Virus record (IMG/VR): IMGVR_UViG_3300046009_003274
Span: 1 to 30,052 of that record
Length of the DNA stretch: 30,052 nucleotides
From: a virus
Direction: 5' to 3' (one strand)
Of the stretch, positions 1 through 13,416 are shown one piece after another; positions within the stretch are counted from its first letter, which is position 1, and every line of letters begins with the position of its first letter. The translations under genes and the position numbers were made by a program. The notes under the pieces were generated by a model. The model was not told where the DNA came from. It did not search any database and saw nothing but the letters and a program-made list of their open reading frames with translations.

Positions 1-72
1 GCAGTTAACGTGAACTCAACGGAGGAACTCCCTGCAGCCATGATGAATATCGTACAAGAGTTGTACTCCTGA
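1..72 (+). CDS. C-terminal end of an unidentified protein (partial)
   Basis: The window opens inside a reading frame that runs 23 codons and stops with TGA at 70-72. The stop shares its last base with the ATG of the primase gene (TGATG), the same tight coupling seen throughout this operon. The visible tail contains the residues STEELPAAMMNIVQELYS, too little to name a family. By position it is an early or replication gene of the phage. It is treated as real because of the junction, not because of any motif. Confidence 0.55.
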   Translation, partial: AVNVNSTEELPAAMMNIVQELYS

Positions 73-854
73 TGTTACCCCGGACTGATCCAAAGATAGA
101 CTTGAACGTACAGGGTACGCACTACTATCATCATTCCGGGTGCAATAACCGTGAATCCAGCAAGTCACTAAGTGTGACGAGGAAGCGAAATGGACATGTT
201 TGGCATTGCTTTAAATGTGGTAACAGTGGTTTTCACCCTCTTGTGGGCTTTCACTCAGTGGAAGCTAAACAAGGCGGAGCAGCAAGCAAGACACCTTCAC
301 GAAGCCTTGAACAGTATCTCTCTGGAGCTGTTTCTTATCATGCAATGTCTCCACTCGCACGGGAGTACCTCAGAGGTTATTTCGGAGATGAAGAACTCTT
401 CGAGCATGAAGCTGTGGAATTCTCTTGTGAAGGCAGGACTGGTCTCCGGTGGAAAACCGCAAGAGGCTACCAAGAACGTACACTGAGTGGTGACGGACCT
501 AAGTGGAAATCCTACGGAGGGTCAGACGATTTTTACCTCCGTGGGAGAGGTGATCTTCTGGTAATCACCGAGGACGTGATCAGTGCTAGGATGGTATCAC
601 AGCACACAGCAGCCCTAGCTACGCTAGGTACTACTGTGAAAGACTCCCTGCTACCTCTGATCGCTAAGTACAAGTACTGCGCTGTGTGGTATGATGACGA
701 CTCAAGCATCGTTAAACGACAGCAGATGCAGGCTTGTATCAAGATCCAAGCTTACCTTCCCTGCACAGTGATCCATACTGGTACTGACCCAAAGAACGTA
801 CCAGATATCCCAGCTGTCCTTCAGGACGTTATGGAGCACTTTAATGCTAGCTAG
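72..854 (+). CDS. DNA primase (zinc-binding and Toprim domains)
   Basis: A 260-residue protein that probably synthesises RNA primers at the phage fork. Its N-terminus has a zinc-ribbon pattern, H21-x2-C24 then C46-x2-C49 in WHCFKCG, as in DnaG and T7 gp4 primases. A Toprim-like core follows: LLVITEDV with acidic E167/D168, and a second acidic strand VWYDDD at 205-210. There is no helicase domain; that is a separate gene 138 nt downstream, so the T7 gp4 primase-helicase activities are divided between two proteins here. The start ATG overlaps the preceding stop. Family assignment is from visible motifs; the priming role is inferred from the family and the neighbouring helicase and polymerase. 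Confidence 0.85.
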   Translation: MLPRTDPKIDLNVQGTHYYHHSGCNNRESSKSLSVTRKRNGHVWHCFKCGNSGFHPLVGFHSVEAKQGGAASKTPSRSLEQYLSGAVSYHAMSPLAREYLRGYFGDEELFEHEAVEFSCEGRTGLRWKTARGYQERTLSGDGPKWKSYGGSDDFYLRGRGDLLVITEDVISARMVSQHTAALATLGTTVKDSLLPLIAKYKYCAVWYDDDSSIVKRQQMQACIKIQAYLPCTVIHTGTDPKNVPDIPAVLQDVMEHFNAS

Positions 855-1107
855 CGAAGAAGAGACTATAATCTGTTTAACCATCAAGCGATGGTCTGGG
901 ATGACTGGACAACCTTACAGTGATTACTGGGAAAGAAACTACATAATTTCCAAGTTATCTCCAGAAGCACAAGAACTTACGAGGATGCAATATGGAATCA
1001 GAGATCATCGCAGCTTGCAGGTCGCACAGTTGGTACTCACAGTACAGGAAGCTTCTCCGGCCGGAGATGGTATCCTCACACGCATACGTTGTGCTTACCG
1101 TACTTGA
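844..1107 (+). CDS. Hypothetical small protein overlapping primase and helicase
   Basis: An 87-residue frame whose ATG overlaps the end of the primase gene by 11 nt, with GGAG about 10 nt upstream. It is the only frame covering 855-991. Its last 116 nt lie in a different frame inside the helicase N-terminus. The first half (EEETIICLTIKRWSGM, then SKLSPEAQELTRMQYG) looks protein-like. The second half is compositionally less convincing and may be constrained only by the helicase frame. No known domain is recognised. Alternatively 855-991 is a leader for the helicase gene. Confidence 0.45.
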   Translation: MLASEEETIICLTIKRWSGMTGQPYSDYWERNYIISKLSPEAQELTRMQYGIRDHRSLQVAQLVLTVQEASPAGDGILTRIRCAYRT

Positions 1108-2173
1108 TAAGTACTACTCTAGTACTAAGAAAGATATCAGTACTCAAGATCTGTATACTCTAGTTAAGCTTCAAACACAGAATCAAGGAGTACTTGATCT
1201 AGTTCAAGACATTACTCCTAGTACTGTAATCCTTGAAGCTCTTCAAGAGAGGTATTACTTCAGCAAGATCGCTGAGATGTCTCTGGATATTGTAGAGTCT
1301 GGCAATGTAGACCCTAAGGATGTTCAGAAATTACTAGCGGAATTTTTCAGCAAAACTGGAGTGGTCCTAGAACATGACCAGACCAGCGTAAACGACCTGT
1401 TCAGCTCCCAGAGCGTTCAAGGGTTCGACTGGCCTGTGAAGTTCCTTGACGACGCTGTAGGCCCGCTTGAGCCGGGGAGCATGGTACTGTTCGGAGCTAG
1501 GCCAGAGGCAGGCAAGACAACCATGCTTGCACACGTTACTACCCACATGGCCCAGCAGACTACCAGTCCTGTGCTTGTGATCCTGAACGAGGAGCCTGTG
1601 AAGGCTGCGAAGTCTAGGTATATCCAAGCACTGCTTGGCAAGACACGAGCTGAGATCCAGCAGGATATCATCCTCTCCCTTAGTGAGATCAAGAGCAAGC
1701 TAGGGTGTGAATTCGATGAACGATTCAAGTTTTACCATAACCCATCTCTCACAATTGAGGATATTTCTAGCCTTGCGGAGCGTTGGAGTCCTAGTATCAT
1801 CGTCGTTGATCAGCTCCGAAACGTTCAAGCTCGCGGGAGATATGGTACGGACGTTGAGCGTCTCAAATATCTATATGAACACTCCCGAAGGATGGCAGCC
1901 GCTGCCAATGCTGTATTTTTCACAGTCCATCAAGCAAGAGGAGACGCTGAGGGAGTGCCTTACATCTCTGGGAATCAGCTAGAGGGCTGCCAGACTGAGG
2001 TTCAGGGTGCTCTGGACGTGCAGATCATGATCGGCAAGGACAACGATCCAATGAACGAGCACATTCGGTACCTGAACATCGTCAAGAACAAGTCACGAGG
2101 TGTGCGTGACGAGAGCAAGCGTCACGGTAGAGAGCCTGTGCATCTGGACAGGATGAAAGCGAGGTTCACATGA
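992..2173 (+). CDS. Replicative DNA helicase (DnaB / T7 gp4 C-terminal type)
   Basis: A 393-residue RecA-fold helicase that would unwind DNA ahead of the polymerase and partner with the separate primase. Walker A is GARPEAGKTT at 168-177 (K175, T176). Walker B is IIVVDQ at 269-274 (D273). A conserved HQARG stretch lies near 315. The C-terminal LNIVKNKSRG segment matches the DnaB motif around the arginine finger. Residues 1-125 form a helical N-terminal domain. The start is chosen for the upstream GAGG (acgaggatgcaatATG). The DNA for the N-terminal domain is visibly more AT-rich than the ATPase half, with the change near 1370. The stop overlaps the polymerase start (ATGA). Confidence 0.9.
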   Translation: MESEIIAACRSHSWYSQYRKLLRPEMVSSHAYVVLTVLDKYYSSTKKDISTQDLYTLVKLQTQNQGVLDLVQDITPSTVILEALQERYYFSKIAEMSLDIVESGNVDPKDVQKLLAEFFSKTGVVLEHDQTSVNDLFSSQSVQGFDWPVKFLDDAVGPLEPGSMVLFGARPEAGKTTMLAHVTTHMAQQTTSPVLVILNEEPVKAAKSRYIQALLGKTRAEIQQDIILSLSEIKSKLGCEFDERFKFYHNPSLTIEDISSLAERWSPSIIVVDQLRNVQARGRYGTDVERLKYLYEHSRRMAAAANAVFFTVHQARGDAEGVPYISGNQLEGCQTEVQGALDVQIMIGKDNDPMNEHIRYLNIVKNKSRGVRDESKRHGREPVHLDRMKARFT

Positions 2174-3285
2174 CATATGCAATACTAGACATTGAGACTA
2201 CCAGCAAGAAAGATCTAGCTAGAGGTCTGCATCCTTACGGGCTTAACGATATCGTTTTGATCGGAGGCAAGAGAGAGAAGAACAACTGTGAGATCATGCC
2301 GGGAGGAACTAGCATCCATCTCAATGCTGATTACATCGTAGGGCATAACCTTGCGTTCGACCTTGGGTTCTTGCTAGCCAACGGCAATCTTCACCCGAAC
2401 GATTTCAAGTCTGTCCCTTGGGATACTCAGATCTTCCATTACCTCTGGCTTGGGCAGAAGAAATACCCTAGCCTTGAGGAGGCAGCGGAGTACTGGTGCC
2501 CCGGTGAGGAGCTGAAGAAGACTGCGGATATCGGAGACCTGATCGAGCAGTACGGAGACACGGATAAGATCCCTCGTGTGATCCTTGATCCTTACCTTGA
2601 GATGGACCTGATCCTTACGGAGAAGGTATTCCAAGCTCAGTGGAGACAGCTTGAGTTCGCTTCTGAGGATGTAACGTTCCTGATCATGAGTGAGATGCTT
2701 GCATGCAAGGAGAATATCCTTGCTACGTGTAACGGTATCCCTCTGCACATGGAGAAGCTTGCCCTGAAGAAAGTGAACCTGCTTTCTACGGCTGATCTCC
2801 TGAGAAACAGGTTCATCCATGAGATCGAGAAGACTATCTCTAGCAGCACTGCTGTGAAAGATCCAGATATCATCAACAGCACCAAGTTTGCTCAGCAGTT
2901 GATCTACGCAGATACCGCCACGTTCGACGTGGTTTCTCCTACTGGATTCTACAAGTCTGGACTCAAGAAAGGACAGGTGAAGTGGAGTACCTCTCAGGGA
3001 GCGATGATTCTGCAAGGGACGAAGGTCACGCCTCTCGATGGAAGTATGTCTACTGATGAGGAGAACATTCAGAAGTACCTGAAGTTCGGAGATCCACACA
3101 GTAATCGTGTTACTCTCTTGAAGATGATCCTTGAGTATCGCTCAGTTACTAAAGCACTAGGTACATACTGTGCTAACCTTGAGAAGTACCAGATCGCTGG
3201 AGTACTGCATCCCGGATTCCAGCAGGTATCCACAGGCACAGGCAGAGCCAGCGCAGTTAAACCTAACATCCAGAATCAGCCTTAG
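2170..3285 (+). CDS. Family A DNA polymerase, N-terminal half (3'-5' exonuclease, thumb, start of palm)
   Basis: A 371-residue first part of a PolA-type replicative polymerase. All three proofreading motifs are present: Exo I LDIETTS (D7, E9), Exo II HNLAFDLGFL, and Exo III YLEMD (Y-x3-D). The exonuclease is therefore predicted active. The C-terminus carries the template-contact motif TGTGRASAVKPNIQNQP, matching TGRLSSTDPNLQNIP of E. coli Pol I, then ends at TAG 3283-3285 just before motif A. The catalytic palm and fingers are in the next ORF, in a different frame. The gene is thus either split into two polypeptides or joined by frameshifting. The start overlaps the helicase stop by 4 nt. Confidence 0.9.
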   Translation: MTYAILDIETTSKKDLARGLHPYGLNDIVLIGGKREKNNCEIMPGGTSIHLNADYIVGHNLAFDLGFLLANGNLHPNDFKSVPWDTQIFHYLWLGQKKYPSLEEAAEYWCPGEELKKTADIGDLIEQYGDTDKIPRVILDPYLEMDLILTEKVFQAQWRQLEFASEDVTFLIMSEMLACKENILATCNGIPLHMEKLALKKVNLLSTADLLRNRFIHEIEKTISSSTAVKDPDIINSTKFAQQLIYADTATFDVVSPTGFYKSGLKKGQVKWSTSQGAMILQGTKVTPLDGSMSTDEENIQKYLKFGDPHSNRVTLLKMILEYRSVTKALGTYCANLEKYQIAGVLHPGFQQVSTGTGRASAVKPNIQNQP

Positions 3286-3296
3286 GAGGACTCGTG
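3284..3296 (+). promoter_or_regulatory. Strong Shine-Dalgarno serving the second polymerase ORF
   Basis: AGGAGGA at 3284-3290 overlaps the stop codon of the first polymerase ORF (3283-3285) and lies 4 nt before GTG at 3294. This is close to a perfect anti-SD match, and it argues that the downstream half is started afresh by the terminating or a new ribosome. An in-frame ATG at 3318 is a less well placed alternative start. Confidence 0.7.
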
Positions 3297-4088
3297 GACT
3301 TCACAACCAAAGACTTGATGATTCCACCTGAGGACAGGACATGGGTGGAGGTAGACCTTTCCCAGATCGAGGTGCGTGTCCTAGCTGCAGTGAGTAACTG
3401 CCCTAAGTACATCAAGCAGCTTAACGACCCTGAGTTCGATCCTCACTGTCAGAGTGGTGCGCTTGCTGCAGGTGTTGAGTACGATTACTTCGTATTCCAC
3501 TACAAACTAGGAGATCCGGGATTTGTAGACGCACGCAAGCATGGCAAGACGATCAGCTTCGAGTTCCAGTACGGAGCCAAGATCATTAGTATCGCCAAGC
3601 GTAATGGTATCCCTGAACGTACTGTTCAGGCTTACGCGAATAACTTCGAGAAGCTGTACCCGGAGGTGATGCAGTTCCATAAGAAAAACAGAGACACTGT
3701 GGCTAGGGAGCATGGCAAGCTGTTCGTAGATGTTCTCAGGAACGGAGTGGTCAAAGCGTACCCACGCTGGTGGAACGTGGAGAGGACGAAGTACGACAAG
3801 TGGAACGTGAACCAGATCATGAACTACCCGATCCAAGGGATCAGCTACGACGTGAACAAGCTGGTGTGGATACAGCCCATGAGTTCTGGTATACTCAAGC
3901 ACCGTCAGGTCCACGACAGTATCCTGTACAGTGTTCCTGATCATAAACTACAGGAGGGAATCAACGAGATTCGTTCAGTGTATGCTACACTCCAAGCCAA
4001 GGTGACAGAGTGTTTGTTTGATTGTCCAGTGATTCTTCCTTACGAACTCAAGGTTGGTAAGGATCTTACTTTCAAAGAGGTGAAGTAA
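3294..4088 (+). CDS. Family A DNA polymerase, C-terminal half (palm and fingers)
   Basis: A 264-residue catalytic part of the PolA-type polymerase. Motif A is EVDLSQIEVR with catalytic D21 and E26. Motif B is R81-x3-K85-x3-F89-x3-Y93 with YG, aligning exactly with E. coli R754, K758, F762 and Y766. The NYPIQG helix lies near 177-182, and motif C is VHDSIL with D208. It lacks exonuclease and thumb, so it must assemble with the product of 2170-3285 to act. It starts at GTG with a strong SD overlapping the upstream stop. Phe at the 762-equivalent has been associated in phage surveys with virulent lifestyles. The stop overlaps the next start (TAATG). Confidence 0.9.
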   Translation: MDFTTKDLMIPPEDRTWVEVDLSQIEVRVLAAVSNCPKYIKQLNDPEFDPHCQSGALAAGVEYDYFVFHYKLGDPGFVDARKHGKTISFEFQYGAKIISIAKRNGIPERTVQAYANNFEKLYPEVMQFHKKNRDTVAREHGKLFVDVLRNGVVKAYPRWWNVERTKYDKWNVNQIMNYPIQGISYDVNKLVWIQPMSSGILKHRQVHDSILYSVPDHKLQEGINEIRSVYATLQAKVTECLFDCPVILPYELKVGKDLTFKEVK

Positions 4089-4588
4089 TGCAAGCAGTAG
4101 TTGAAGACATCAAGTCCGCTCCCCTCCCCTCTGGCAAGGGGTTCCGATACAGTGTGAAACTGAATGGACAGTATATCTCAGCAGGTTTCAAGGCTCCCGG
4201 TTGTAACGTCGGAGACACTATCGAGTACAATACAGTTCAGAACGGACAGTACACTAACTTGGGGTCCATCCAAGTACTCAGCCAAGGAGGTGCAAGTGCT
4301 TCTGCTCCTAACAGCGGAGCTGTTTCCAGTGCTCAGCCTGCTGGCAAACGTGAACGTTCTATCGTACGTCAGAATTCTCTCAGTCACGCGGTAGTGACGA
4401 TGAACACGTTCTTGGATAGTGTCCGTAGTAGCAGTGGCGTGGAAGCCAAGAACTACACTAATGCAGTAGACCTTGCTCAGGACACCTTGCTGGTTGCTCG
4501 TGTGTATGAGCTGTACTCCATGCAGGACATGGATGACGACGCACTGAACGAGAAACTGGAACAGCTGTTGGGTTCCACTGCGGAGTAA
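4088..4588 (+). CDS. Putative single-stranded DNA-binding protein (OB-fold-like)
   Basis: A 166-residue protein directly after the polymerase (1-nt overlap). The first ~65 residues are beta-rich with alternating hydrophobics (FRYSVKLNGQYISAGF, then GDTIEYNTVQNGQYTNLGSI), consistent with an OB fold. A Ser/Ala/Gly linker follows (about 70-90), then a helical segment and an acidic tail (MQDMDDDALNEKLEQLL). A DNA-binding barrel, flexible linker and acidic C-terminus is the usual layout of phage SSBs, and the position between polymerase and exonuclease fits. No diagnostic signature is visible, so this rests on layout and context. Confidence 0.5.
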   Translation: MQAVVEDIKSAPLPSGKGFRYSVKLNGQYISAGFKAPGCNVGDTIEYNTVQNGQYTNLGSIQVLSQGGASASAPNSGAVSSAQPAGKRERSIVRQNSLSHAVVTMNTFLDSVRSSSGVEAKNYTNAVDLAQDTLLVARVYELYSMQDMDDDALNEKLEQLLGSTAE

Positions 4589-4594
4589 GCTAGC

Positions 4595-5371
4595 TTGAAG
4601 ACGTTCATCGACGGGGATACTATTGCGTACGCAGCTGCTGTCAGTGGGTACAAATCCGTCGATGGAACGGACGACCCTGTGATGGCTGTTCAGGTGACCT
4701 TGGGTAGGGTCAAGCGGTCCCTAGACCATATCATCGAAGCCACACAGGCGTCGGAGTACAAGCTGTACCTCTCCGACGATACAGTGAACACGTTCCGTAA
4801 GGCTTTCTACTCTGACTACAAGAACAACAGACCGAAGGAGAAACCACCCTTGCTGGAAGCAGCAAGGGATTACATGAAGCACGTATGGGGTGCTCAGGTG
4901 TGGCCCGGACTGGAGGCTGACGATGCAGTTGCTATTGAGCAAACAAGAGTGCAACACACTGGGTGTATTGCTGCAATTGACAAAGACCTCCTCCAAGTTC
5001 CGGGGCTGGTGTATAACTGGAGATCGGGAACGACTGTTCTGGTTAGCCCAACAGATGGTGCTGAGAGTCTGTATCGTCAGTCCCTCATGGGGGATAAAAC
5101 AGATGCTATCCCCGGACTTGGCTATTGTGGAGAATCTACTATACAAAAACACTCCCTTACTAGTCACGCAAGACGTGGTTGTGGCGAAGTCTCCGCAAGG
5201 AAAATCCTTTCAGGAGCCAGTAACGAGCTAGAGATGTACCAGAGGGTGCGTGACGCATACGAGGATACATACGGATCAGAATGGAAGTACCGACTGGTAG
5301 AGCAGATGAACCTTGTGTACCTGATCCGTGAGTTCAATGGAGGGCCTGTCCTGTGGACACCTCCCCAGTGA
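4595..5371 (+). CDS. 5'-3' exonuclease, FEN / T7 gp6 family, with an insertion
   Basis: A 258-residue PIN/FEN nuclease. Metal-binding acidic residues lie in FIDGDTIAY (N-terminus), WPGLEADDAVAI, AAIDKDLLQ and the GDKTDAIPGL stretch. It would remove RNA primers and degrade DNA to recycle nucleotides, as T7 gp6 does. It begins at TTG 4595, with GGAG 9 nt upstream and 6 nt after the SSB-like gene. Oddity: between IPGL and RGCGEVSARKIL, where relatives continue directly into the DNA-binding helix-hairpin, about 18 extra residues are present (DNA about 5120-5173). They are in frame and may loop out. The C-terminus looks complete. Confidence 0.8.
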   Translation: MKTFIDGDTIAYAAAVSGYKSVDGTDDPVMAVQVTLGRVKRSLDHIIEATQASEYKLYLSDDTVNTFRKAFYSDYKNNRPKEKPPLLEAARDYMKHVWGAQVWPGLEADDAVAIEQTRVQHTGCIAAIDKDLLQVPGLVYNWRSGTTVLVSPTDGAESLYRQSLMGDKTDAIPGLGYCGESTIQKHSLTSHARRGCGEVSARKILSGASNELEMYQRVRDAYEDTYGSEWKYRLVEQMNLVYLIREFNGGPVLWTPPQ

Positions 5372-5796
5372 AACCTGAGAAACGTCTGCCTAAACAGCAG
5401 ATCATCAAGAACCTCAGAGAGAAATACCAAAAGGAACAGAATGACATTTGCAACTTGTGTGGTTGTGTCCTCAGTGATAACCTACCTAGCCTTGATCACG
5501 ACCACAAGACTGGGCTGGTAAGATCGGTACTCTGTAGAAACTGTAATCAATGTGAAGGGAGAATACTGAAATGGGTGCATCGAGCAAAGCGAAAACTAAC
5601 ACCGCTGCAGTGGCTAAGCGCACTGGTAAAGTACTGGGAGTTTCACGAGGTAAGTCAAAGGGAACTCCATCCCTTACACGGAAGTACACCCAAGAAGAGA
5701 TCGAGAAAGCGAAGCAAGGCGCAACCCCAGCGCACTACAAGAAAAACTGGACGTGGTTCATCACGGAGCACCTCACGTTCTCGCAAGGCTGTGTGA
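5353..5796 (+). CDS. Recombination endonuclease VII
   Basis: A 147-residue His-Me finger nuclease that probably resolves branched replication and recombination DNA. Zinc ligands are C33-x2-C36 and C61-x2-C64. The catalytic region is LDHDHKTGLVRSVLC (D48, H49, H51), the hallmark of the endonuclease VII family. The tail is very basic (RSRKRSK and further Arg/Ser stretches). The start GTG 5353 is preceded by GGAGGG at 5339-5344; GTG 5368 is a second option in the same frame. It overlaps the exonuclease end by 19 nt, and its last 226 nt also encode the start of the next ORF in another frame. Confidence 0.85.
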   Translation: MDTSPVKPEKRLPKQQIIKNLREKYQKEQNDICNLCGCVLSDNLPSLDHDHKTGLVRSVLCRNCNQCEGRILKWVHRAKRKLTPLQWLSALVKYWEFHEVSQRELHPLHGSTPKKRSRKRSKAQPQRTTRKTGRGSSRSTSRSRKAV

Positions 5797-6104
5797 TGAA
5801 GCGGCTGGTACGTCTTGGTCTGAAGGATAAACCTCTGTTTGATCTGTACAAGATCCAGAAAGAACTGGAATCCTGTGAGCGGTATCCTCACCAACAGATG
5901 AACGAGAAACGTAAGCTCCAGATGTACGGAGACTTCCGTCAGATGATGTCGAGTCTTCCTTGGCAGGATTCTCCCGGCAGCATCGATACTTGGTGGCTGC
6001 TTCCTGAGTTCATCGAGGCTGTGCTTGCTGACGACTTCGAGAAGTTCTCTTACGAGATCAAGCAAGCTATCTTTGAAGAAGAGAACCAAGAAATCTTCCA
6101 GTAA
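5571..6104 (+). CDS. Hypothetical protein, overlapping endonuclease VII
   Basis: A 177-residue protein of unknown function. The first 45 residues are basic and low-complexity (KAKTNTAAVAKRTGK). The rest is mainly helical and acidic at the end (EEENQEIF). ATG 5571 has a usable SD (GGGAGA, 8 nt upstream), but this start makes the first 226 nt overlap endonuclease VII out of frame. An in-frame ATG at 5796 overlaps the endonuclease stop exactly (TGATG), like most junctions here, and would give 102 residues. Codon choice across 5680-5796 in this frame looks coding, so I prefer 5571. By position it may serve in replication. Confidence 0.7.
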   Translation: MGASSKAKTNTAAVAKRTGKVLGVSRGKSKGTPSLTRKYTQEEIEKAKQGATPAHYKKNWTWFITEHLTFSQGCVMKRLVRLGLKDKPLFDLYKIQKELESCERYPHQQMNEKRKLQMYGDFRQMMSSLPWQDSPGSIDTWWLLPEFIEAVLADDFEKFSYEIKQAIFEEENQEIFQ

Positions 6105-6121
6105 CCAGAACTAAAGTTCTA

Positions 6122-6198
6122 GCACCCGTAGCTTAATCGGATATAGCAGCGAACTTCTAATTCGCAGGTTGCAGGTTCGAGTCCTGCCGGGTGCGCCA
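6122..6198 (+). tRNA. tRNA-Arg (anticodon TCT)
   Basis: A full cloverleaf: acceptor GCACCCG pairs with CGGGTGC, discriminator G, encoded CCA at 6196-6198. The anticodon stem GCGAA/TTCGC encloses the loop CTTCTAA, giving anticodon TCT, which reads AGA. The T arm is GCAGG-TTCGAGT-CCTGC. AGA codons are frequent in the surrounding genes, so the tRNA probably offsets a host shortage. It lies between two protein genes and must be cut from the operon transcript. Confidence 0.93.
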
Positions 6199-6213
6199 TC
6201 TAAGGAGAGTGTC

Positions 6214-6414
6214 ATGATGCCTAAGTACCGTGTGGTTCTGTATAACGCTATCGGTGACCTTGAGGATATACTTCAGGAGTCAGACGACCTTGGTGTTATC
6301 CTGAATTCCTGTGGGAATTTTTCCAAGAACCCAGACTACCGGAGTTATATTATCCAAGCTGAGGAGTTCCTCGGGTACCAACCTCTGCCTATGCACTACG
6401 AGGTAGCGTCGTGA
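6214..6414 (+). CDS. Hypothetical protein, 66 residues
   Basis: Starts at ATG 6214 with AAGGAG at 6202-6207, 6 nt upstream. The frame extends back into the tRNA but cannot start there. The protein (MMPKYRVVLYNAIGDLEDIL and onward) is mixed alpha/beta, and no domain is recognised. The stop overlaps the GTG of the next gene (GTGA). Base composition is like the phage core, so it is probably the last native gene before the GC-rich block. Confidence 0.7.
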   Translation: MMPKYRVVLYNAIGDLEDILQESDDLGVILNSCGNFSKNPDYRSYIIQAEEFLGYQPLPMHYEVAS

Positions 6415-6665
6415 GTACAGACAAACTGCCGGCGTGGCCGGAGAGGAAGCGCGGCCAACTGCTTGTCAACTACAACCATGACCTTGCCGACGCCTACCGC
6501 GCGCGCATGGAGGCGCTGGTGGAGTACGCGGAGCACACCGATAGCTGGACGTATGGATGCGCAAGCCTTGGGGCAACGACCAAGGCATGGACCGACGGCA
6601 AGCGTGGCTGCACCTGCGGCCTCGACGCCCTGCTCTCCGCGTGCGTGCGAAAGGAGGGGCGATGA
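6411..6665 (+). CDS. Hypothetical protein of the GC-rich island (84 residues)
   Basis: Starts with GTG 6411 inside the stop of the previous gene. The product is small and soluble, with a helical middle (NHDLADAYRARMEALVEYAE) and a Cys-containing end (RGCTCGLDALLSACV). The CxC and following Cys could bind a metal, but no family is recognised. Codon use is GC-rich and unlike the phage core. GGAGGGG near its end doubles as the ribosome-binding site of the next gene. Confidence 0.65.
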   Translation: MSTDKLPAWPERKRGQLLVNYNHDLADAYRARMEALVEYAEHTDSWTYGCASLGATTKAWTDGKRGCTCGLDALLSACVRKEGR

Positions 6666-7006
6666 AATGCGAATGTAAAGAAAACGAATCCCCGCCGCTT
6701 TCCTACATCGAGGAGTCGGAGAAGCAGATCACCACCCTCCGCGCCGAGGTGGAGCGGCTGACGCGAAACGTGACCATGCTGGGGAAGTGGCGCGATCTTG
6801 CGGAGGAAGACAACGAAAGCCTCCGCTCCCAACTCTCCGATCGCGACGCCGAGGTGCGGGCGCTGCGGGAACTGATCGAAGGCAGCGGCGAATGGTCGCC
6901 GAACTCGCGCGGAAAGATGATCTTTCGCTTCGGCGGCGGGTTCATTGCAGACGACGCAACGCTCGCTTTGATCACGGGCGAGCCGGGGCCAGGGGGTGAG
7001 GGATGA
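6662..7006 (+). CDS. Hypothetical coiled-coil protein of the GC-rich island (114 residues)
   Basis: ATG 6662 overlaps the preceding TGA and has GGAGGGG just upstream; the frame stays open further 5' but with no better start. The N-terminus is Cys-rich (MKCECKENE). Residues about 20-75 form a heptad-like coiled coil (EKQITTLRAEVERLTRNV and the following stretch). The C-terminal part is Gly-rich (FRFGGGF). The function is unknown; coiled coils of this type are common in small accessory proteins of phages of GC-rich hosts. It is coupled by ATGA to the next gene. Confidence 0.7.
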   Translation: MKCECKENESPPLSYIEESEKQITTLRAEVERLTRNVTMLGKWRDLAEEDNESLRSQLSDRDAEVRALRELIEGSGEWSPNSRGKMIFRFGGGFIADDATLALITGEPGPGGEG

Positions 7007-7209
7007 GCGACGAACTGCGACTGGCGCAATCAAACCTTGAGTACGCGGAAGCCGAGATCGAGAGGCTGAAGAATGCACTCGACATGGCGAGGGCAGACTA
7101 CGCGGAGAGGGCAGAGCAGCACCTCGATGCATTGATCGAACTGGAGGACCGACGCGAGTTCATGACGGCGGATCAGAAACTAGGACGAAGCACTGGAGGA
7201 AAGTCATGA
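7003..7209 (+). CDS. Hypothetical coiled-coil protein of the GC-rich island (68 residues)
   Basis: ATG 7003 overlaps the previous stop (ATGA). The product is almost entirely one charged helix (NLEYAEAEIERLKNALDMAR, then an Ala/Glu-rich stretch to about residue 55), suggesting a coiled coil that may pair with the product of 6662-7006. No family is recognised. The last ~35 nt (aaactaggacgaagcactgg) already look like phage-core composition, placing the island's right edge inside this gene. Its stop overlaps the thyX ATG. Confidence 0.65.
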   Translation: MSDELRLAQSNLEYAEAEIERLKNALDMARADYAERAEQHLDALIELEDRREFMTADQKLGRSTGGKS

Positions 7210-7841
7210 CTAATGTACGACTGATCTGTGTAAGTAAACCTGTTCTCCCTGAGATTCCTGACAGTGAAGCCCTGCTTGGGTACTTCGCTAGAGTATCCTC
7301 TGCGAAGCAGGAGGAGCACGAGACAGCACCTAGACTCCTGAAGTACCTGAAGCGTCATGAGGAGTGGTCTCCATTTGAGATGTGCTCAGCGACTATGGAG
7401 ATACATACTACTCGTGATATCTCCAGACAGATCCTGAGACACAGGAGCTTCAGCTTTCAGGAGTTCAGTCAGAGATATGCAGAGGTTCCTGATGAGATCT
7501 CTCCTAGGGAAGCTAGGATGCAGGACCATAAGAACAGACAGAACAGCACTGAGACTGATGATGCTGTGCTCAGTAACTGGTTCCACTGGGAACAAAAAGC
7601 GGTATGGAAACACGCCATGAGTGTATACAAGGACGCACTGCATGCTGGCGTTGCCAAGGAACAAGCCAGAGCACTGCTACCTGAAGGTCTGACTAGTACC
7701 AAGCTGTACATGGCAGGGACTGTCAGGTCATGGATGCACTACACTGACCTGAGGTGTAAACCTGAGACTCAGAAAGAACATCGTGAGATCGCTGAACAAT
7801 GCCGTGAAATCCTGTATACTGAGTTCCCGTCCCTGAGGTGA
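7206..7841 (+). CDS. thyX: FAD-dependent thymidylate synthase ThyX
   Basis: A 211-residue flavin-dependent thymidylate synthase, which converts dUMP to dTMP using methylene-tetrahydrofolate, NADPH and FAD. The ThyX signature RHR-x7-S is intact at R78-H79-R80 to S88 (RHRSFSFQEFSQRY). Length is normal for the family. A C-terminal RSWMHYTDLRC stretch matches the substrate-binding end. GGAGG precedes the start at the usual distance and the ATG overlaps the upstream stop. With RNR and MazG it forms the phage dNTP-supply set. Confidence 0.95.
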   Translation: MTNVRLICVSKPVLPEIPDSEALLGYFARVSSAKQEEHETAPRLLKYLKRHEEWSPFEMCSATMEIHTTRDISRQILRHRSFSFQEFSQRYAEVPDEISPREARMQDHKNRQNSTETDDAVLSNWFHWEQKAVWKHAMSVYKDALHAGVAKEQARALLPEGLTSTKLYMAGTVRSWMHYTDLRCKPETQKEHREIAEQCREILYTEFPSLR

Positions 7842-7845
7842 CAGC

Positions 7846-8640
7846 ATGAACTCTAAGACAAAGCCGATCACTCACTGTGTGATTCCTGATACTCAGATCA
7901 AACCCGGTGTTCCCACTGAGCATATCACTGCAGCGAGTAACTATATCCTCGACAAGAAGCCTGACGTGATCGTGGTACTAGGTGACTGGTTCGACATGCC
8001 TAGCATGTCTCAGTACGAGCAGAGAGGGAGCAAGTACTTTGAAGGTAAGTCCTACATATCAGATATCGATGCTGGGATTGCTGGTATGGACTTGCTGTTT
8101 GACCCGTGGATCAGATACAATAACGCTCGTAAGAAATCCAAGCATGCTTTATACACTCCACGGACGGTGTTTATCACAGGAAACCATGAGCATCGCATTC
8201 AGCGAGCAGTCTATCAAGACCCAAGGTTGGAAGGTACAATTTCCCTAGACGACCTCAGGCTCCGTAGACACTTCGATGAGGTCCATGACTTCTTGGAGAT
8301 TGTAGACATCGATGGCATTCTATACTCCCATTACTTCCAGAATCCCGACTCGGCGAAACGTATGCCTCTGGGAGGACAGGTTCCTAACAGACTTAGATCC
8401 ATCGGTCAGAGTTTTACCCAAGGACACCAGCAGGGTCTTAGTGTTGGTATGCGATACACTCCTACTGGTAAAGCACAGCGAGGCATTGTCGCAGGCAGTT
8501 TCTACCAACATGACGAGCATTACGCTGGACCGCAAGGAAGTAATTACTGGCGTGGCATTCTCTTCTGCCACGAGGTTCAGGCCGGCGACTATAGCTTGAT
8601 GGAGGTCAGCATTGATTACCTACTTAAGGAGTGGCTGTAA
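7846..8640 (+). CDS. Calcineurin-like metallophosphoesterase
   Basis: A 264-residue member of the metallophosphoesterase fold found in many phage replication and nucleotide operons. Metal-binding blocks: IPDTQ (D15; the usual DxH is altered to DxQ), LGDWFD (G46-D47), GNHEHR (N113-H114), YSHYF (H162), and GHQQG (H194, where GHTH is usual). The third and last blocks show that it is not a Ser/Thr protein phosphatase of textbook type. The substrate is unknown. The neighbouring thyX, mazG and nrd genes suggest nucleotide or nucleic-acid phosphoester cleavage. It starts 4 nt after thyX. Confidence 0.85.
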   Translation: MNSKTKPITHCVIPDTQIKPGVPTEHITAASNYILDKKPDVIVVLGDWFDMPSMSQYEQRGSKYFEGKSYISDIDAGIAGMDLLFDPWIRYNNARKKSKHALYTPRTVFITGNHEHRIQRAVYQDPRLEGTISLDDLRLRRHFDEVHDFLEIVDIDGILYSHYFQNPDSAKRMPLGGQVPNRLRSIGQSFTQGHQQGLSVGMRYTPTGKAQRGIVAGSFYQHDEHYAGPQGSNYWRGILFCHEVQAGDYSLMEVSIDYLLKEWL

Positions 8641-8798
8641 TGGCTAAGACAGAGACAGCTAAGGTAAAGAATCAAACCACAGTCCTGAAATGTTCCTGCT
8701 CTCACGAGTACCAAGATCGTAAATACGGTAACAAGATGAGAGTCAAGAACAGCTGTGGTAAAGGTTTCCGTTGTACCGTGTGTGGGAGCGTGTCATGA
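8640..8798 (+). CDS. Small zinc-ribbon protein, 52 residues
   Basis: A short gene that fills 8640-8798. ATG 8640 overlaps the phosphoesterase stop (TAATG) and TGA 8796-8798 overlaps the next ATG (ATGA), so both junctions match the operon style. The protein has Cys at C18 and C20 (LKCSCSHEYQ), C39 (KNSCGKGF) and a clear C45-x2-C48 knuckle (FRCTVCGS), consistent with a single zinc site. The function is unknown; such mini zinc ribbons are often nucleic-acid or polymerase binders. Confidence 0.75.
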   Translation: MAKTETAKVKNQTTVLKCSCSHEYQDRKYGNKMRVKNSCGKGFRCTVCGSVS

Positions 8799-8983
8799 TC
8801 GAAGCGTTTGTTACCAGAGCAGTAGGACTCACAGAGAAAGGGAAAAAGATCGGAGTCTGGGTAGTGGAAGAAGTAGACGACAAGCAGAACACGGTGAAGT
8901 ACACTGAGTACACTACCAAGGAAGAAGCTTGGAAGCGTGCATGCAAGGTGAACAAAGAACCGTACATTGAAGGAGACTTCTAG
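8795..8983 (+). CDS. Hypothetical protein, 62 residues
   Basis: Starts at ATG 8795, coupled to the zinc-ribbon gene by ATGA; an earlier in-frame ATG at 8771 would lie inside that gene. The product is small, charged and beta-rich (IGVWVVEEVDDKQNTVKYTE), then a helix with EEAWKRACKV. No known domain is recognised. Its TAG overlaps the GTG of the MazG-like gene. Confidence 0.65.
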   Translation: MIEAFVTRAVGLTEKGKKIGVWVVEEVDDKQNTVKYTEYTTKEEAWKRACKVNKEPYIEGDF

Positions 8984-9402
8984 TGGAGAGCTACAGAGAA
9001 CTAGTAGACGCACTCACTGTACCTGTGTTCGAGGTACGTGGTAACTTCAAGAACATGGCTGCCACTGAGGTTGACTTCCTGCATGCATGTGTAGGACTCA
9101 GCACAGAGGCAGGGGAGCTTCTGGACGTAGCCAAGAAGATCCTGTTCTACGGTCAGTCAATGGACGAGCACCGTGAGAACATCCGTGAGGAGCTGGGGGA
9201 TCTGATCTTCTACCTTGAGCTGGCATGTGCTGCCATGAGCACAGACTCAGACTCCATGAAAGCCAAGAACAAGGTGAAGCTTCTTACTCGGTACTCCTCT
9301 GGCAGGTTCAGCAAGGAGGAAGCCAAGTGCAGGCTTGACAAGTCTCTTGATACCCCTGATCCTGCAATGGTCCAGAACAAAGACGGGAGCTTCGAGATCT
9401 AA
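8983..9402 (+). CDS. MazG-like nucleoside triphosphate pyrophosphohydrolase
   Basis: A 139-residue all-alpha NTP pyrophosphatase. The MazG/dUTPase-like metal site is visible as GLSTEAGELLD (E42-x2-E45) and REELGDLIFYL (E70-x2-D73). Such phage enzymes hydrolyse unwanted (d)NTPs or, in host MazG, lower the alarmone ppGpp; the substrate cannot be told here. The start is GTG overlapping the previous stop. It is the last protein gene before the tRNA pair. Confidence 0.85.
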   Translation: MESYRELVDALTVPVFEVRGNFKNMAATEVDFLHACVGLSTEAGELLDVAKKILFYGQSMDEHRENIREELGDLIFYLELACAAMSTDSDSMKAKNKVKLLTRYSSGRFSKEEAKCRLDKSLDTPDPAMVQNKDGSFEI

Positions 9403-9409
9403 CTGTTCC

Positions 9410-9485
9410 GCCTGTGTAGCTCAGTTGGTAGAGCAACTGCCTTGTAAGCAGAAGGTCGTGGGTTCAACTCCTACCACAGGCACCA
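9410..9485 (+). tRNA. tRNA-Thr (anticodon TGT)
   Basis: Acceptor GCCTGTG/CACAGGC, discriminator A, encoded CCA 9483-9485. The D arm is AGCTCAGTTGGTAGAGC. The anticodon loop CTTGTAA sits on the CTGC/GCAG stem, giving TGT, which reads ACA. The T arm GTGGG-TTCAACT-CCTAC has a G-T pair. It lies 7 nt after the MazG-like gene and 4 nt before tRNA-Gly. Confidence 0.94.
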
Positions 9486-9489
9486 CTTT

Positions 9490-9564
9490 GCGCTGCTAGC
9501 ACAACGGCTAGTGCTACTGCCTTCCAAGCAGAGGATCGGGGTTCGATTCCCCGGCAGCGCACCA
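9490..9564 (+). tRNA. tRNA-Gly (anticodon TCC)
   Basis: Acceptor GCGCTGC/GCAGCGC, discriminator A, encoded CCA 9562-9564. The D arm is GCACAACGGCTAGTGC. The anticodon loop CTTCCAA gives TCC, which reads GGA, a very common Gly codon in this window. The T arm is CGGGG-TTCGATT-CCCCG. It forms a tandem pair with tRNA-Thr. Confidence 0.94.
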
Positions 9565-9615
9565 CAGGAATCCCGATTCTAAGGGCCTTCCAGACAGACC
9601 CGCTACCCTCCTACC

Positions 9616-9637
9616 GGGCCTCTCTAAGAGGCCCCTT
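9616..9637 (+). terminator. Terminator-like hairpin after the tRNA pair
   Basis: GGGCCTCT (9616-9623) pairs perfectly with AGAGGCCC (9627-9634) around a 3-nt loop, followed by CTTCT, so the U tract is short. The hairpin lies in the 178-nt gap between tRNA-Gly and nrdA. It could end part of the upstream operon transcription or define the 3' end of the tRNA precursor. Confidence 0.5.
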
Positions 9638-9695
9638 CTAGGGCTTCCTAGAGCCTTACAGAGGCATGTTTTACTGGCATCCTAGATCCGAACTG

Positions 9696-9707
9696 TGGGG
9701 TACCCCA
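9696..9707. promoter_or_regulatory. 12-bp perfect palindrome upstream of nrdA
   Basis: TGGGGTACCCCA is a perfect inverted repeat 36 nt before the nrdA ATG, in the only real intergenic space of the plus-strand operon. It could be an operator for a dimeric protein or a small leader hairpin. It does not resemble the NrdR box consensus. The nrdA SD (CAGGAG) follows at about 9732-9737. No convincing -35/-10 pair is seen in 9640-9695. Confidence 0.3.
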
Positions 9708-9742
9708 GTGGTCAGAGGGAACCACCTACTTCAGGAGTCACC

Positions 9743-11434
9743 ATGAACCTGTCCGACCATGCAGAGAAGCTTCTCAGAGAACACTACATGCTCCCTGAGG
9801 AGAAGAACCCTAGGGACGTAATGATCCGTGCAGCTAGCACGTTCTGCGGGGGAGACACAGAGCTACGGGATCGTCTGATCTCCTACACTGACCAGAAATG
9901 GTTCATGTACTCCAGTCCGATCCTGAGTAATGCAGGCACTAGGAGCATGCCTATCAGCTGCTTCCTTAGTTACGTACCAGACTCAATCACAGGGTTGATT
10001 CAGCATGAATCAGAAATCAGACACCTTTCAATTCTTGGAGGGGGAATCGGTACTCATTGGAGTTCTGTGCGCAGTATCGGGCAAGAAACTAAACACGGTG
10101 CTAGAACTCCCGGAATCATACCGTTCCTGCACTGCACTGACTCAGCCATGCTTGCTTACCACCAAGGACAAACTAGACGAGGAAGCGCTGCTGCATATCT
10201 GGATGTATCACATCCAGAGATTCTAGAGTTCATCACCATGAGAACCCCCAAGGGGGACTCGAACAGAGTGAACCTGAACCTGCACCACGGTGTGAATATC
10301 TCCCAGAGGTTCATGGATGCAGTGGTTCAGGGTACAGAGTTCCCTCTGGTAGATCCTCACTCAGGTATAGTTACGAAGTACGTGGATGCCAGAGAACTCT
10401 GGAGTCTCCTGATCAAGACTCGGTACCAGACAGGTGAGCCGTACCTGCACTGGATCGACAAGAGTAACGCTGCACTGAACCCTGCCCTGCACCAGAAAGG
10501 CTACCGTGTACGTGGTAGTAACCTGTGTGCAGAGATCGTCCTGCCTACTGGACCTGATTACACAGCAGTGTGCTGCCTCTCCTCACTGAACCTTGAGTAC
10601 TACGGTGAGTGGGAACACACGAGGATCGTGGAAGATGTCACTGAAATGCTGGATAATGTCTTGGAGTACTTTATTGCTAGAGCGCCTGAGTCTGTTCGTA
10701 ATGCTGTGCGTTCTGCACAGTATGAACGCAGCATTGGCATTGGTGCAATGGGCTTCCACAGTCTACTCCAACGTAGAGGTATTCCTTTCGAGTCTGCTCA
10801 GGCAGTCTCCTTGAACAAGAGAATCTTCAGAGAGATCAAGTTGCGTGCGTACGAGCATTCGTGTAACCTTGCTAAGGTACGAGGAGAGCCAGAGGGGCTT
10901 GCTGGAACAGGCCAGAGAAATGCTCACCTGTTGGCTATTGCTCCTAATTCTAATAACAGTATCCTTCTCGATACATCCCCAAGTATCGAACCTTGGAAAG
11001 CTAATTGCTTTGAACACACGACCAGAATCGGTAGTATCTTCAAGAAGAACTCATACTTGGAAGCTACGCTTGGTTCACTCGGCATGAACACACCTGAGGT
11101 GTGGAAGAGCATCATGCAGAACGAGGGATCAGTACAGCATCTGGATATCCCTGAGTGGGATAAGCTGGTGTACAAGACGGCTAACGAGATCGATCAACAC
11201 TGGGTTGTCCAGCATGCTGCAGACAGACAGGAGTACGTGTGTCAGGCACAGAGCCTGAACCTGTTCTTCCCTGCAGCAGCAGACGTGAACTACGTGCAGA
11301 GTGTTCACCTGAAAGCAGCTATGTCTCCGGTGAAGACTCTGTATTACCTTAGAACTGATGGCAAGAAGTCTGAGAGCATTGACCTGAAGATCATCAGGAA
11401 TCCTCTCCAAGACTGTATTGCCTGCGAAGGCTAG
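9743..11434 (+). CDS. nrdA: Ribonucleotide reductase class I, large (alpha) subunit
   Basis: A 563-residue catalytic subunit that reduces ribonucleoside diphosphates. Active-site residues are visible: redox Cys C73 (SCFLSY) and C277 (VCCLSSLNL), radical Cys C262 with N260 and E264 (SNLCAEI), paired tyrosines in TLYYLRT, and a C-terminal CxxC (CIACEG) for re-reduction. It is much shorter than E. coli NrdA (761) because the N-terminal ATP-cone domain is absent, so dATP inhibition through that site should be lost. Start ATG 9743 is chosen for the CAGGAG SD; the frame opens earlier at 9695 inside the palindromic leader. The partner nrdB lies 975 nt downstream. Confidence 0.95.
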   Translation: MNLSDHAEKLLREHYMLPEEKNPRDVMIRAASTFCGGDTELRDRLISYTDQKWFMYSSPILSNAGTRSMPISCFLSYVPDSITGLIQHESEIRHLSILGGGIGTHWSSVRSIGQETKHGARTPGIIPFLHCTDSAMLAYHQGQTRRGSAAAYLDVSHPEILEFITMRTPKGDSNRVNLNLHHGVNISQRFMDAVVQGTEFPLVDPHSGIVTKYVDARELWSLLIKTRYQTGEPYLHWIDKSNAALNPALHQKGYRVRGSNLCAEIVLPTGPDYTAVCCLSSLNLEYYGEWEHTRIVEDVTEMLDNVLEYFIARAPESVRNAVRSAQYERSIGIGAMGFHSLLQRRGIPFESAQAVSLNKRIFREIKLRAYEHSCNLAKVRGEPEGLAGTGQRNAHLLAIAPNSNNSILLDTSPSIEPWKANCFEHTTRIGSIFKKNSYLEATLGSLGMNTPEVWKSIMQNEGSVQHLDIPEWDKLVYKTANEIDQHWVVQHAADRQEYVCQAQSLNLFFPAAADVNYVQSVHLKAAMSPVKTLYYLRTDGKKSESIDLKIIRNPLQDCIACEG

Positions 11435-11443
11435 TGAGGGATA

Positions 11444-11533
11444 ATGCAAGAACTAATTCTAGTGTTTCTGGGTGTAGTGTTCTTTGGTGTACTGATCTGG
11501 ATTCTTGATGGAGGGATAGATGATGAAACTTAG
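11444..11533 (+). CDS. Predicted single-pass membrane peptide, 29 residues
   Basis: A tiny frame, ATG 11444 to TAG 11533, preceded by GAGGGATA. Residues 4-21 (LILVFLGVVFFGVLIWIL) form one strongly hydrophobic helix, followed by a short acidic tail (DGGIDDET). It fills the gap after nrdA and overlaps the next gene by 14 nt. It resembles other small phage membrane peptides in shape only. It has no holin features beyond the single helix, and the function is unknown. Confidence 0.55.
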   Translation: MQELILVFLGVVFFGVLIWILDGGIDDET

Positions 11534-11732
11534 GTCAACTGAAACCAGTAACCGTCAGGAGATCTGGAGCCGTAACGATCATATCGGAGACACGGTGTGG
11601 AACCCAGTGAGCAACCAGTGGGAGCTGGACTGTACTAGCGTGGAAGAGATGCTCACAGTGGACCAGCTGAAGCAGATCTGCAAGATCCTTGAGACGAAGA
11701 ACAGCATGATCGGAGGTTCTGTTCATGGGTAA
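11520..11732 (+). CDS. Hypothetical protein between nrdA and nrdB (70 residues)
   Basis: ATG 11520 (or 11523) follows GGAGGG in the end of the membrane-peptide gene. The product is soluble, with an N-terminal polar part (NRQEIWSRNDHIGDTVW) and a C-terminal amphipathic helix (SVEEMLTVDQLKQICKILET). It overlaps the next gene by 8 nt. No family is recognised. There is no CxxC, so it is not a glutaredoxin for RNR. Confidence 0.65.
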   Translation: MMKLRSTETSNRQEIWSRNDHIGDTVWNPVSNQWELDCTSVEEMLTVDQLKQICKILETKNSMIGGSVHG

Positions 11733-11949
11733 GGTGATCAGCTTCAAGGGTGGACAGAAGGTAAACCATCTGGACGAGATGAACTCAGCGTTCAAGCAGC
11801 TTGACAAGTACTTTGTCCTGTGTGAGAATGAATCGCATATCATGTGCTTTCACTCAGACATGGAGCTGAGTGATCTCCTGATGTTCCAGAAGATCCTGAA
11901 TATCTATATCGATGAATGCTTCGAGCAAGGCGTGGAGTATAGCGAATGA
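11725..11949 (+). CDS. Hypothetical protein between nrdA and nrdB (74 residues)
   Basis: ATG 11725 has GGAGG about 9 nt upstream. The product is small and acidic toward the C-terminus (IDECFEQGVEYSE), with a basic start (MGKVISFKGGQK) and scattered cysteines that do not form a redox motif. It is coupled to the next gene by ATGA. Function unknown; placement within the nrd cluster is the only clue. Confidence 0.65.
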   Translation: MGKVISFKGGQKVNHLDEMNSAFKQLDKYFVLCENESHIMCFHSDMELSDLLMFQKILNIYIDECFEQGVEYSE

Positions 11950-12419
11950 GCGATCCAGCTGAAATTAATCTTCCTCCTTTGCAGGACAGACAAGTCCTGA
12001 TGGTGTTAGGCAAGCCCAAGCTGTACCAGCTTAAAGCACTGAAGACAGCACTGCACGAGATCATCAAGTCCACTCCCGGACTTGTTCTGGTTATCCCTGA
12101 AGGGGAGATCCCTGTGTTCAAGCTGGATCTGGGTAACACTCCTTGTGTGTTAGTTGAACCAATCAAAAACATACGAGGCAAGCCCAGAGTTATCCCTACA
12201 CTACGGTTGTGCTGGAGGACAAGTGTAAAACTGGTTCACCAAGAAAATGAGAACTACCTCAGCAGGATCGCTGTTCTTGCTGTTGACGGTGCTACCCCTT
12301 GGGGTAAGCAGACAAGAAACTTCTTTAACAAGCTTCCTCCTGTGTTGTACCTTTACAACGGAAGGACGGTAGTGAATGAGATAAGTAACTTCCCTGAAGG
12401 AGAGAGTAATGCTGCATGA
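11946..12419 (+). CDS. Hypothetical protein between nrdA and nrdB (157 residues)
   Basis: An alpha/beta protein with repeated beta strands (RQVLMVLG, LVLVIPEGEIPVFKL, CVLVEPI, IAVLAVDGA, VLYLYNGRTV) separated by helices. This suggests a compact soluble domain. No P-loop, zinc or redox motif is seen, and no family is recognised. It starts by ATGA overlap with its upstream neighbour and overlaps nrdB by 11 nt, so it should be translated with the RNR subunits. Confidence 0.7.
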   Translation: MSDPAEINLPPLQDRQVLMVLGKPKLYQLKALKTALHEIIKSTPGLVLVIPEGEIPVFKLDLGNTPCVLVEPIKNIRGKPRVIPTLRLCWRTSVKLVHQENENYLSRIAVLAVDGATPWGKQTRNFFNKLPPVLYLYNGRTVVNEISNFPEGESNAA

Positions 12420-13416
12420 TCCGTCACTGACGTACAGACCTTTCCAGTACCCGTGGGCTGTGGAGTATAACCAGACCCACGAGATCGACCTGCACTGGCA
12501 CGAGAAAGAGGTGAACCTGCAGCAGGATATCCAGCAGTGGAACGATGGGAAGATCACTGAACAGGAGAAGCAGTTCATAACGAACGTCCTGCGACTGTTC
12601 ACCCAGAGTGACGTGGCTGTAGGTGAGGCGTACAAGCACCTGTTGATCCCGTACTTCCAGAACAACGAGGTGAGTAACATGCTCACCAGCTTCGCTAACC
12701 GGGAGTCAGTACACCAGAGAGCTTACGCCCTGATCCCTGAGTCTCTCGGTTTCCCTGAGAGCACATGGCATGAGTTCATGGACTTCAAGGAGATGAAGCA
12801 GAAGTTCGAGTTCATCGCTCCTCACGTAGCCAAGAACAATACTGCTACCGGGATGGCTACAGCTCTGGCTAACCAGATCTTCTCTGAGGGTGTGTGCCTG
12901 TTCGGTAGCTTCGCTATGCTGTTGTACTTCAAGCAGCACGGCAAGATGCTGGGCATGTGTGAGGTGGTAGAGTGGAGTATCCGAGACGAGACCCTGCATG
13001 TTCAAGCTAACGCTGACCTGTTCCGTGCTCACTGTGAGGAGACTGGGTGTGTCTCTGATGCCCTGAAGCGCAGGATCTACAGCATGGCTAGAGAGTGTGC
13101 TGCTCTGGAGGAAGCTTTTATCCATCAGGCGTACAGTATCTGGCAGCCTCCCGGCTTACCCAAGGAGGATCTGATCCAGTATATCCAGTACCTGACTGAC
13201 CGTAGACTGGTGCAGATGGGACTCAAGGAGAACTTCGGTGTGGCACTCCCTGCCAGCCTTGAGTTCGTGTCTTGGGTAACGTCAGCTCCCCGCTTCGCGA
13301 ACTTCTTCGAGAGGCGGGTCACTGACTACCAGCAAGCAGGACTTACTGGGACGACTGATTGGCAGGCTTTGCTGGGGAATTCAACTCATCCAGAAGGGCC
13401 TTCATATCCTGAGTAA
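12409..13416 (+). CDS. nrdB: Ribonucleotide reductase class I, small (beta) subunit
   Basis: A 335-residue ferritin-like radical subunit. Ligands and radical site match E. coli NrdB in spacing: D68 (TQSDVAVGE), E99-x2-H102-x3-Y106 in RESVHQRAY (E115, H118, Y122), the EGVCLFGSF helix (E204), and DETLH (E238, H241). The radical Tyr is therefore present and this is a canonical class I enzyme. It starts at ATG 12409 with AGGAGAG about 6 nt upstream, and works with NrdA. Its last 74 nt overlap the end of the convergent minus-strand virion gene. Confidence 0.95.
   Translation: MLHDPSLTYRPFQYPWAVEYNQTHEIDLHWHEKEVNLQQDIQQWNDGKITEQEKQFITNVLRLFTQSDVAVGEAYKHLLIPYFQNNEVSNMLTSFANRESVHQRAYALIPESLGFPESTWHEFMDFKEMKQKFEFIAPHVAKNNTATGMATALANQIFSEGVCLFGSFAMLLYFKQHGKMLGMCEVVEWSIRDETLHVQANADLFRAHCEETGCVSDALKRRIYSMARECAALEEAFIHQAYSIWQPPGLPKEDLIQYIQYLTDRRLVQMGLKENFGVALPASLEFVSWVTSAPRFANFFERRVTDYQQAGLTGTTDWQALLGNSTHPEGPSYPE

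Follow-up and report, generated by a model that had tools for sequence, protein, structure and literature searches.

A probably acquired cassette of small GC-rich genes among the replication genes of a podoviral relative of marine Cobavirinae

The locus and its virus

The window, meaning the whole stretch of DNA analysed, comprises the 30,052 bases of one IMG/VR virus record. Its genes are arranged in two arms that converge, the first with replication and nucleotide genes and the second, on the other strand, with virion genes. This two-armed layout has been described for cobaviruses (PMC6775973). The left arm encodes a primase, a helicase, a two-piece DNA polymerase, an exonuclease, endonuclease VII, thyX, a metallophosphoesterase, MazG and RNR; primase, helicase, polymerase and RNR were named from their sequences and from matches in relatives. 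The region of interest lies within this arm and contains the following features:

5353..5796, + strand: endonuclease VII; left border of the slot, a core gene 53-55% identical to relatives
5571..6104, + strand: protein related to DUF3310 / 'SaV-like' (weak match); start of the accessory block, overlapping the end of the endonuclease VII ORF
6122..6198, + strand: tRNA-Arg (TCT), upstream of ORF1; reads AGA, a codon absent from ORF1-3
6214..6414, + strand: small ORF of 66 aa downstream of the tRNA, an orphan of native composition; stop overlapping the ORF1 start
6411..6665, + strand: ORF1, 84 aa, GTG start; C50, C67-x-C69 and C78, CTCGLDALL near the C-terminus, foreign codon usage
6426..7171, strand not applicable: GC-rich segment, best fit, 63% versus 49%; start within about 6351-6486, end within 7027-7204
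6662..7006, + strand: ORF2, 114 aa, ATG start; foreign codon usage, CxC at the N-terminus, a coiled-coil helix at 13-75 and a small tail predicted as beta-beta-alpha
7003..7209, + strand: ORF3, 68 aa, ATG start; acidic heptad-repeat protein with codon usage indistinguishable from that of the phage
7206..7841, + strand: thyX (FAD-dependent thymidylate synthase); native codon usage, ribosome-binding site GGAGG inside ORF3
7846..8640, + strand: metallophosphoesterase; right border of the slot, a core gene about 50% identical to relatives

An earlier sequence-only reading had described ORF1-3 as three genes between a tRNA-linked gene and thyX, with a 4-nt overlap at every joint, the outer two included. 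Both the coordinates and the overlaps were confirmed at all four joints (GTGA or ATGA at 6411/6414, 6662/6665, 7003/7006 and 7206/7209), as was the placement between tRNA-Arg(TCT) and thyX. Further upstream, the endonuclease VII and DUF3310-like ORFs overlap by 226 bp (5571-5796) in different frames, and the true start of the latter may be later. The window carries two more tRNAs, tRNA-Thr(TGT) at 9410-9485 and tRNA-Gly(TCC) at 9490-9564; the cobavirus genomes of PMC6775973 were reported without tRNAs.

Alignments spanning 96-99% of the major capsid protein show 46-48% identity to its counterparts in SIO1-type podoviruses: Lentibacter phage ICBM2, Roseobacter phage SIO1 and the oyster-associated Cobavirinae phage T5S1. 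The phage is a podovirus related to marine Cobavirinae (Zobellviridae). It is called related to this group, not a member, because its two RNR genes (9740-11434 and 12409-13416) may encode a two-subunit enzyme instead of a cobalamin-dependent RNR. The nearest relative by capsid, G002 (75%), stops in the RNR small-subunit gene, short of the slot. The RNR small-subunit-like gene is 87% identical to that of G002 at the protein level (L169 13140-13889 versus window 12622-13350), and most other shared genes are 29-83% identical; this contrast possibly reflects recombination or strong conservation.

Two ORFs make up the family A DNA polymerase (2170-4088); the break lies between motif A and the NIQNQP motif, and TAGGAGG precedes the GTG of the second piece. 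The same split is found in one relative (L178), with two small ORFs between the pieces. A two-gene polymerase is also annotated in ICBM2 and CRP-5, and the split thus appears to be known in Cobavirinae.

An accessory slot that varies among relatives

In four relatives (L173, L174, L176 and L178), endonuclease VII is followed directly by the metallophosphoesterase, and in L173 and L178 the two ORFs overlap. Identities to these relatives are 56% for RNR, 53-55% for endonuclease VII and about 50% for the metallophosphoesterase. At the slot, none of the four has any of the genes that run from the DUF3310-like one through the tRNA, the small ORF and ORF1-3 to thyX. Because the block, thyX included, is absent from relatives with the gene order endonuclease VII - metallophosphoesterase - RNR, the region represents an accessory slot. 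It covers about 5.8-7.84 kb, exceeding the island first proposed, and ORF1-2 are a foreign piece inside it. ORF1-3 are thus not core genes of the syntenic relatives, and their composition does differ, as detailed below. The absence is in itself compatible with gain here or loss there; composition favours gain for ORF1-2.

In L173, L176 and L178, the relatives scanned for tRNAs, tRNA-Arg(TCT) and tRNA-Thr are adjacent and lie between the metallophosphoesterase and RNR, so that tRNA-Arg is placed differently in the window. A DUF3310-like sequence in L178 follows the large RNR gene. Other thyX-bearing relatives have different small genes, of ordinary GC, ahead of thyX.

The seamless joints had been taken as a sign of notable splicing, which overstates them. 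In three Cobavirinae, 4-nt overlaps occur at 7/28, 11/27 and 22/46 neighbouring gene pairs (40/101 in all), making them standard architecture.

Base composition and codon usage

The three-ORF block of 799 bp has a GC of 0.62. Likelihood segmentation of 5001-9000 assigns 63% G+C to 6426-7171 and 49% to its surroundings, a gain of 26 nats, with boundaries within 2 nats spanning 6351-6486 (start) and 7027-7204 (end). On this segmentation, the reported rise in G+C is real. Gene by gene, GC is 0.651, 0.620 and 0.565 in ORF1, ORF2 and ORF3, and GC3 is 0.79, 0.77 and 0.65, compared with 0.46-0.68 in the other left-arm genes. ORF1 and ORF2 follow the codon-position pattern GC3 > GC1 > GC2; in ORF3, GC3 equals GC1 (0.65). 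The GC3 of ORF1 and ORF2 exceeds that of their neighbours by about 0.2, whereas the largest upward deviation in 104 left-arm genes of three Cobavirinae is +0.13.

Codon usage was compared between a table of the phage left arm and tables of two plasmids (one from Phaeobacter, one from Paraburkholderia) and of two GC-rich viral contigs. The GC-rich tables, which are small and indicate 'GC-rich' only, without pointing to a donor, outperform the phage table by 14-18 nats for ORF1 and 16-32 nats for ORF2. For ORF3, the log-likelihood ratio versus the GC-rich tables runs from +0.3 to -12.6 nats, and a separate comparison gives z -1.9; its codons do not stand out. Three flanking genes (the DUF3310-like one, the small ORF and thyX) fit the phage table better, by 8-82 nats. 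Arginine codons illustrate the difference: AGA accounts for 0/24 in ORF1-3 and 27% in phage genes, although the phage has tRNA-Arg(TCT), and CGC for 42% and 6%, respectively.

The sequence-only reading had attributed different codons and a distinct composition to all three ORFs. The composition difference is present, and both different codons and foreign origin are supported for ORF1 and ORF2; for ORF3, with ordinary codons and intermediate GC, different codons are not confirmed.

Two other GC-rich stretches lie in the window, at 20357-21172 and about 18500-19700. The former owes its GC to an Ala/Gly-rich protein (high GC1 and GC2, low GC3), unlike the ORF1-2 block. GC-rich windows of the relative L168 were considered as the same cassette and rejected, as they are part of two long ORFs of 642 and 603 aa.

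Origin of the cassette

Taken in aggregate, ORF1-3 are probably an acquired accessory cassette embedded in the operon. ORF1 and ORF2 use the codons of a GC-rich organism and are probably recent arrivals. GC-rich DNA bearing ORF1 and ORF2, and possibly ORF3, would have recombined into the variable slot, which endonuclease VII bounds on one side and the thyX, metallophosphoesterase and RNR genes on the other. The donor would probably be a phage, or else a GC-rich bacterium that supplied chromosomal DNA. Transfer is proposed because of composition together with absence from relatives that are rather remote, with 50-60% identity in core proteins; no donor was found, and no recombination scar was seen at the cassette.

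The same genes could instead be native and fast-evolving, with a high GC produced by Ala, Arg, Glu and Leu content and by drift. Cobavirinae arms are indeed full of tiny unshared ORFs, often with 4-nt overlaps, and the native codon table fits ORF3. In ORF1 and ORF2, however, the excess is located at synonymous sites, codon choice is off by 14-32 nats, and 0/104 genes in relatives deviate upward as far. This makes a native origin unlikely.

Predicted proteins and homologue searches

The clustered cysteines noted earlier for one protein are present in ORF1 (C50, C67, C69 and C78) and, with H42, are candidate metal ligands; ORF2 also begins with cysteines (MKCEC). The single-sequence model of ORF1, built with no homologue alignment, has a pLDDT of 55, too low to be usable. 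For ORF2, one helix is predicted at residues 13-75 with pLDDT mostly >90, followed by a small beta-beta-alpha tail (mean 81). The heptad periodicity of both ORF2 and ORF3 exceeds that of all 300 shuffles (p ~0.003). The proposal of two coiled-coil proteins is thereby supported, through predicted helix and heptads in ORF2 and heptads in ORF3. A duplication relating ORF2 to ORF3 was rejected: only 12 residues align, at E 0.07.

Homologues outside the same virus were found neither for ORF1 and ORF2 (tblastn of phages and plasmids to E 1-10; scans of viral_contigs and genome_contigs) nor for ORF3 (tblastn of phages; phmmer limited to the collected loci). ORF1 has weak matches in two phages, Shewanella phage KASIA and Sphingomonas phage Birtae; they lie within longer ORFs and are no better than expected by chance. 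Pfam, NCBIfam, PHROGs and PADLOC gave no family for ORF1-3, ORF2 having weak matches of coiled-coil type. PDB and fold searches named nothing for the three, and the ORF2 fold search was without a match at E <= 0.001.

The motif CTCGLDAL of ORF1 recurs on viral contigs of 54-62% GC, close to the C-terminal end of five different small ORFs (L185/L189, which are copies, L196, L197, L199 and L202); these were retrieved by the motif itself, and the shared motif is only suggestive of homology. Like ORF1, they mostly carry His/Cys just upstream of the motif, and in L197 the overlapping neighbour is helix-rich too, as is ORF2. None has alignable similarity to ORF1 beyond the motif. A tblastn query taken from around the motif in an ORF of another phage returned unrelated matches only (E 0.9 or more).

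Expression and possible function

GAGG, AAGGAGG and GGAGG lie upstream of ORF1, ORF2 and thyX, and ORF3 has a weaker GGTGAGGG. The site before ORF1 is Shine-Dalgarno-like; those at ORF2 and thyX are clear. No promoter-like site was detected on the + strand within 5300-7790 (sigma-70 consensus scan), and no terminator-like site on the + strand before 9650 (simple terminators). The cassette is probably read from the operon transcript. Its translation would proceed by termination-reinitiation at the 4-nt overlaps and from the genes' own Shine-Dalgarno sites, placing its products alongside thyX and the enzymes of DNA synthesis.

ORF2 and ORF3 may self-associate or pair through their helices, and the ORF1 cysteines may form a metal knuckle. 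During takeover the products might tune a protein of the host or of the phage. A tentative assignment is that they are small, non-enzymatic modulators.

A more specific role is counter-defence or host inhibition, a kind of function raised in the sequence-only reading. Here a coiled-coil complex of ORF2 and ORF3 would block a defence protein of the bacterium, and ORF1 would be its partner and bind zinc. The accessory position, the small orphan proteins and the helices are compatible with it, and many small phage early proteins behave in this general way. However, PADLOC gave weak coiled-coil matches only, the other searches named nothing, there are no defence-gene neighbours, and many such small Cobavirinae ORFs have no known role. 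Searches of Pfam, NCBIfam, PHROGs and PADLOC yielded no specific match of ORF1-3 to a described defence or anti-defence family. The proposed function is possible but judged improbable. A broader version, in which ORF1-3 are an unnamed mobile effector cassette moving among phages of GC-rich hosts, the helix pair and the cysteine protein forming one complex that targets a defence system or regulator of the host, is doubtful indeed.

Coding status and assembly

In a rival reading, the GC-rich stretch holds chance ORFs only, or the antisense ORF of 212 aa at 6494-7132 is the real gene. The antisense ORF is longer than in 98% of synonymous shuffles. Yet GC-rich genes often have long antisense ORFs across from them (in the shuffles the longest averages 143 aa), and this one is taken as a probable by-product of GC-rich codons. 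Against both possibilities, ORF1 and ORF2 show the + strand codon-position GC pattern, the Shine-Dalgarno sites are in place, the neighbouring genes are all on +, and full tiling by ORFs with 4-nt overlaps arises in 8/20,000 mononucleotide shuffles. Either is very unlikely.

An assembly chimera, which the abrupt change of composition might bring to mind, is scarcely credible: a second record (L002) has the same block with identical joints and flanks, 100% over 14,385 bp (window 1-14385) with offset ends, so that two chimera events would be needed, unless both records, which are not independent if built from the same reads, share those reads. A third sample holds a 99.4% variant of window 23.4-30 kb.

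Comparison with known systems

The probably acquired cassette represents a clean case of probably recent gene acquisition in a podovirus lineage, at a site that varies among relatives. Slots like this tend to house host-interaction genes, making this a reasonable place for new small phage proteins; nothing found sets the cassette apart among phage accessory genes.

ORF2 matches the ParD1 antitoxin (PDB 8c24) weakly (E 0.094, not significant), which may reflect helical similarity; unlike ParD1, ORF2 has no toxin-like partner alongside.

Phage morons resemble the cassette in three respects: foreign composition (here ORF1 and ORF2 only), a position between conserved genes, and absence from relatives. 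In contrast, the cassette is embedded in the operon, and the + strand shows neither a promoter-like nor a terminator-like site belonging to it (sigma-70 consensus, simple-terminator scan).

Among the closest parallels are the small overlapping hypothetical ORFs of Cobavirinae (Lentibacter phage ICBM2, Roseobacter phage CRP-5 and phage T5S1-k141_653015). These lie in the same replication arm, have similar sizes and frequent 4-nt overlaps, and keep the same gene company: exonuclease, endonuclease, thyX or metallophosphoesterase, MazG and RNR. They differ in that none is convincingly similar to ORF1-3 and none is as GC-rich at third positions. Small accessory genes that relatives do not share are a known type of event in phage operons; the sequences here are new.
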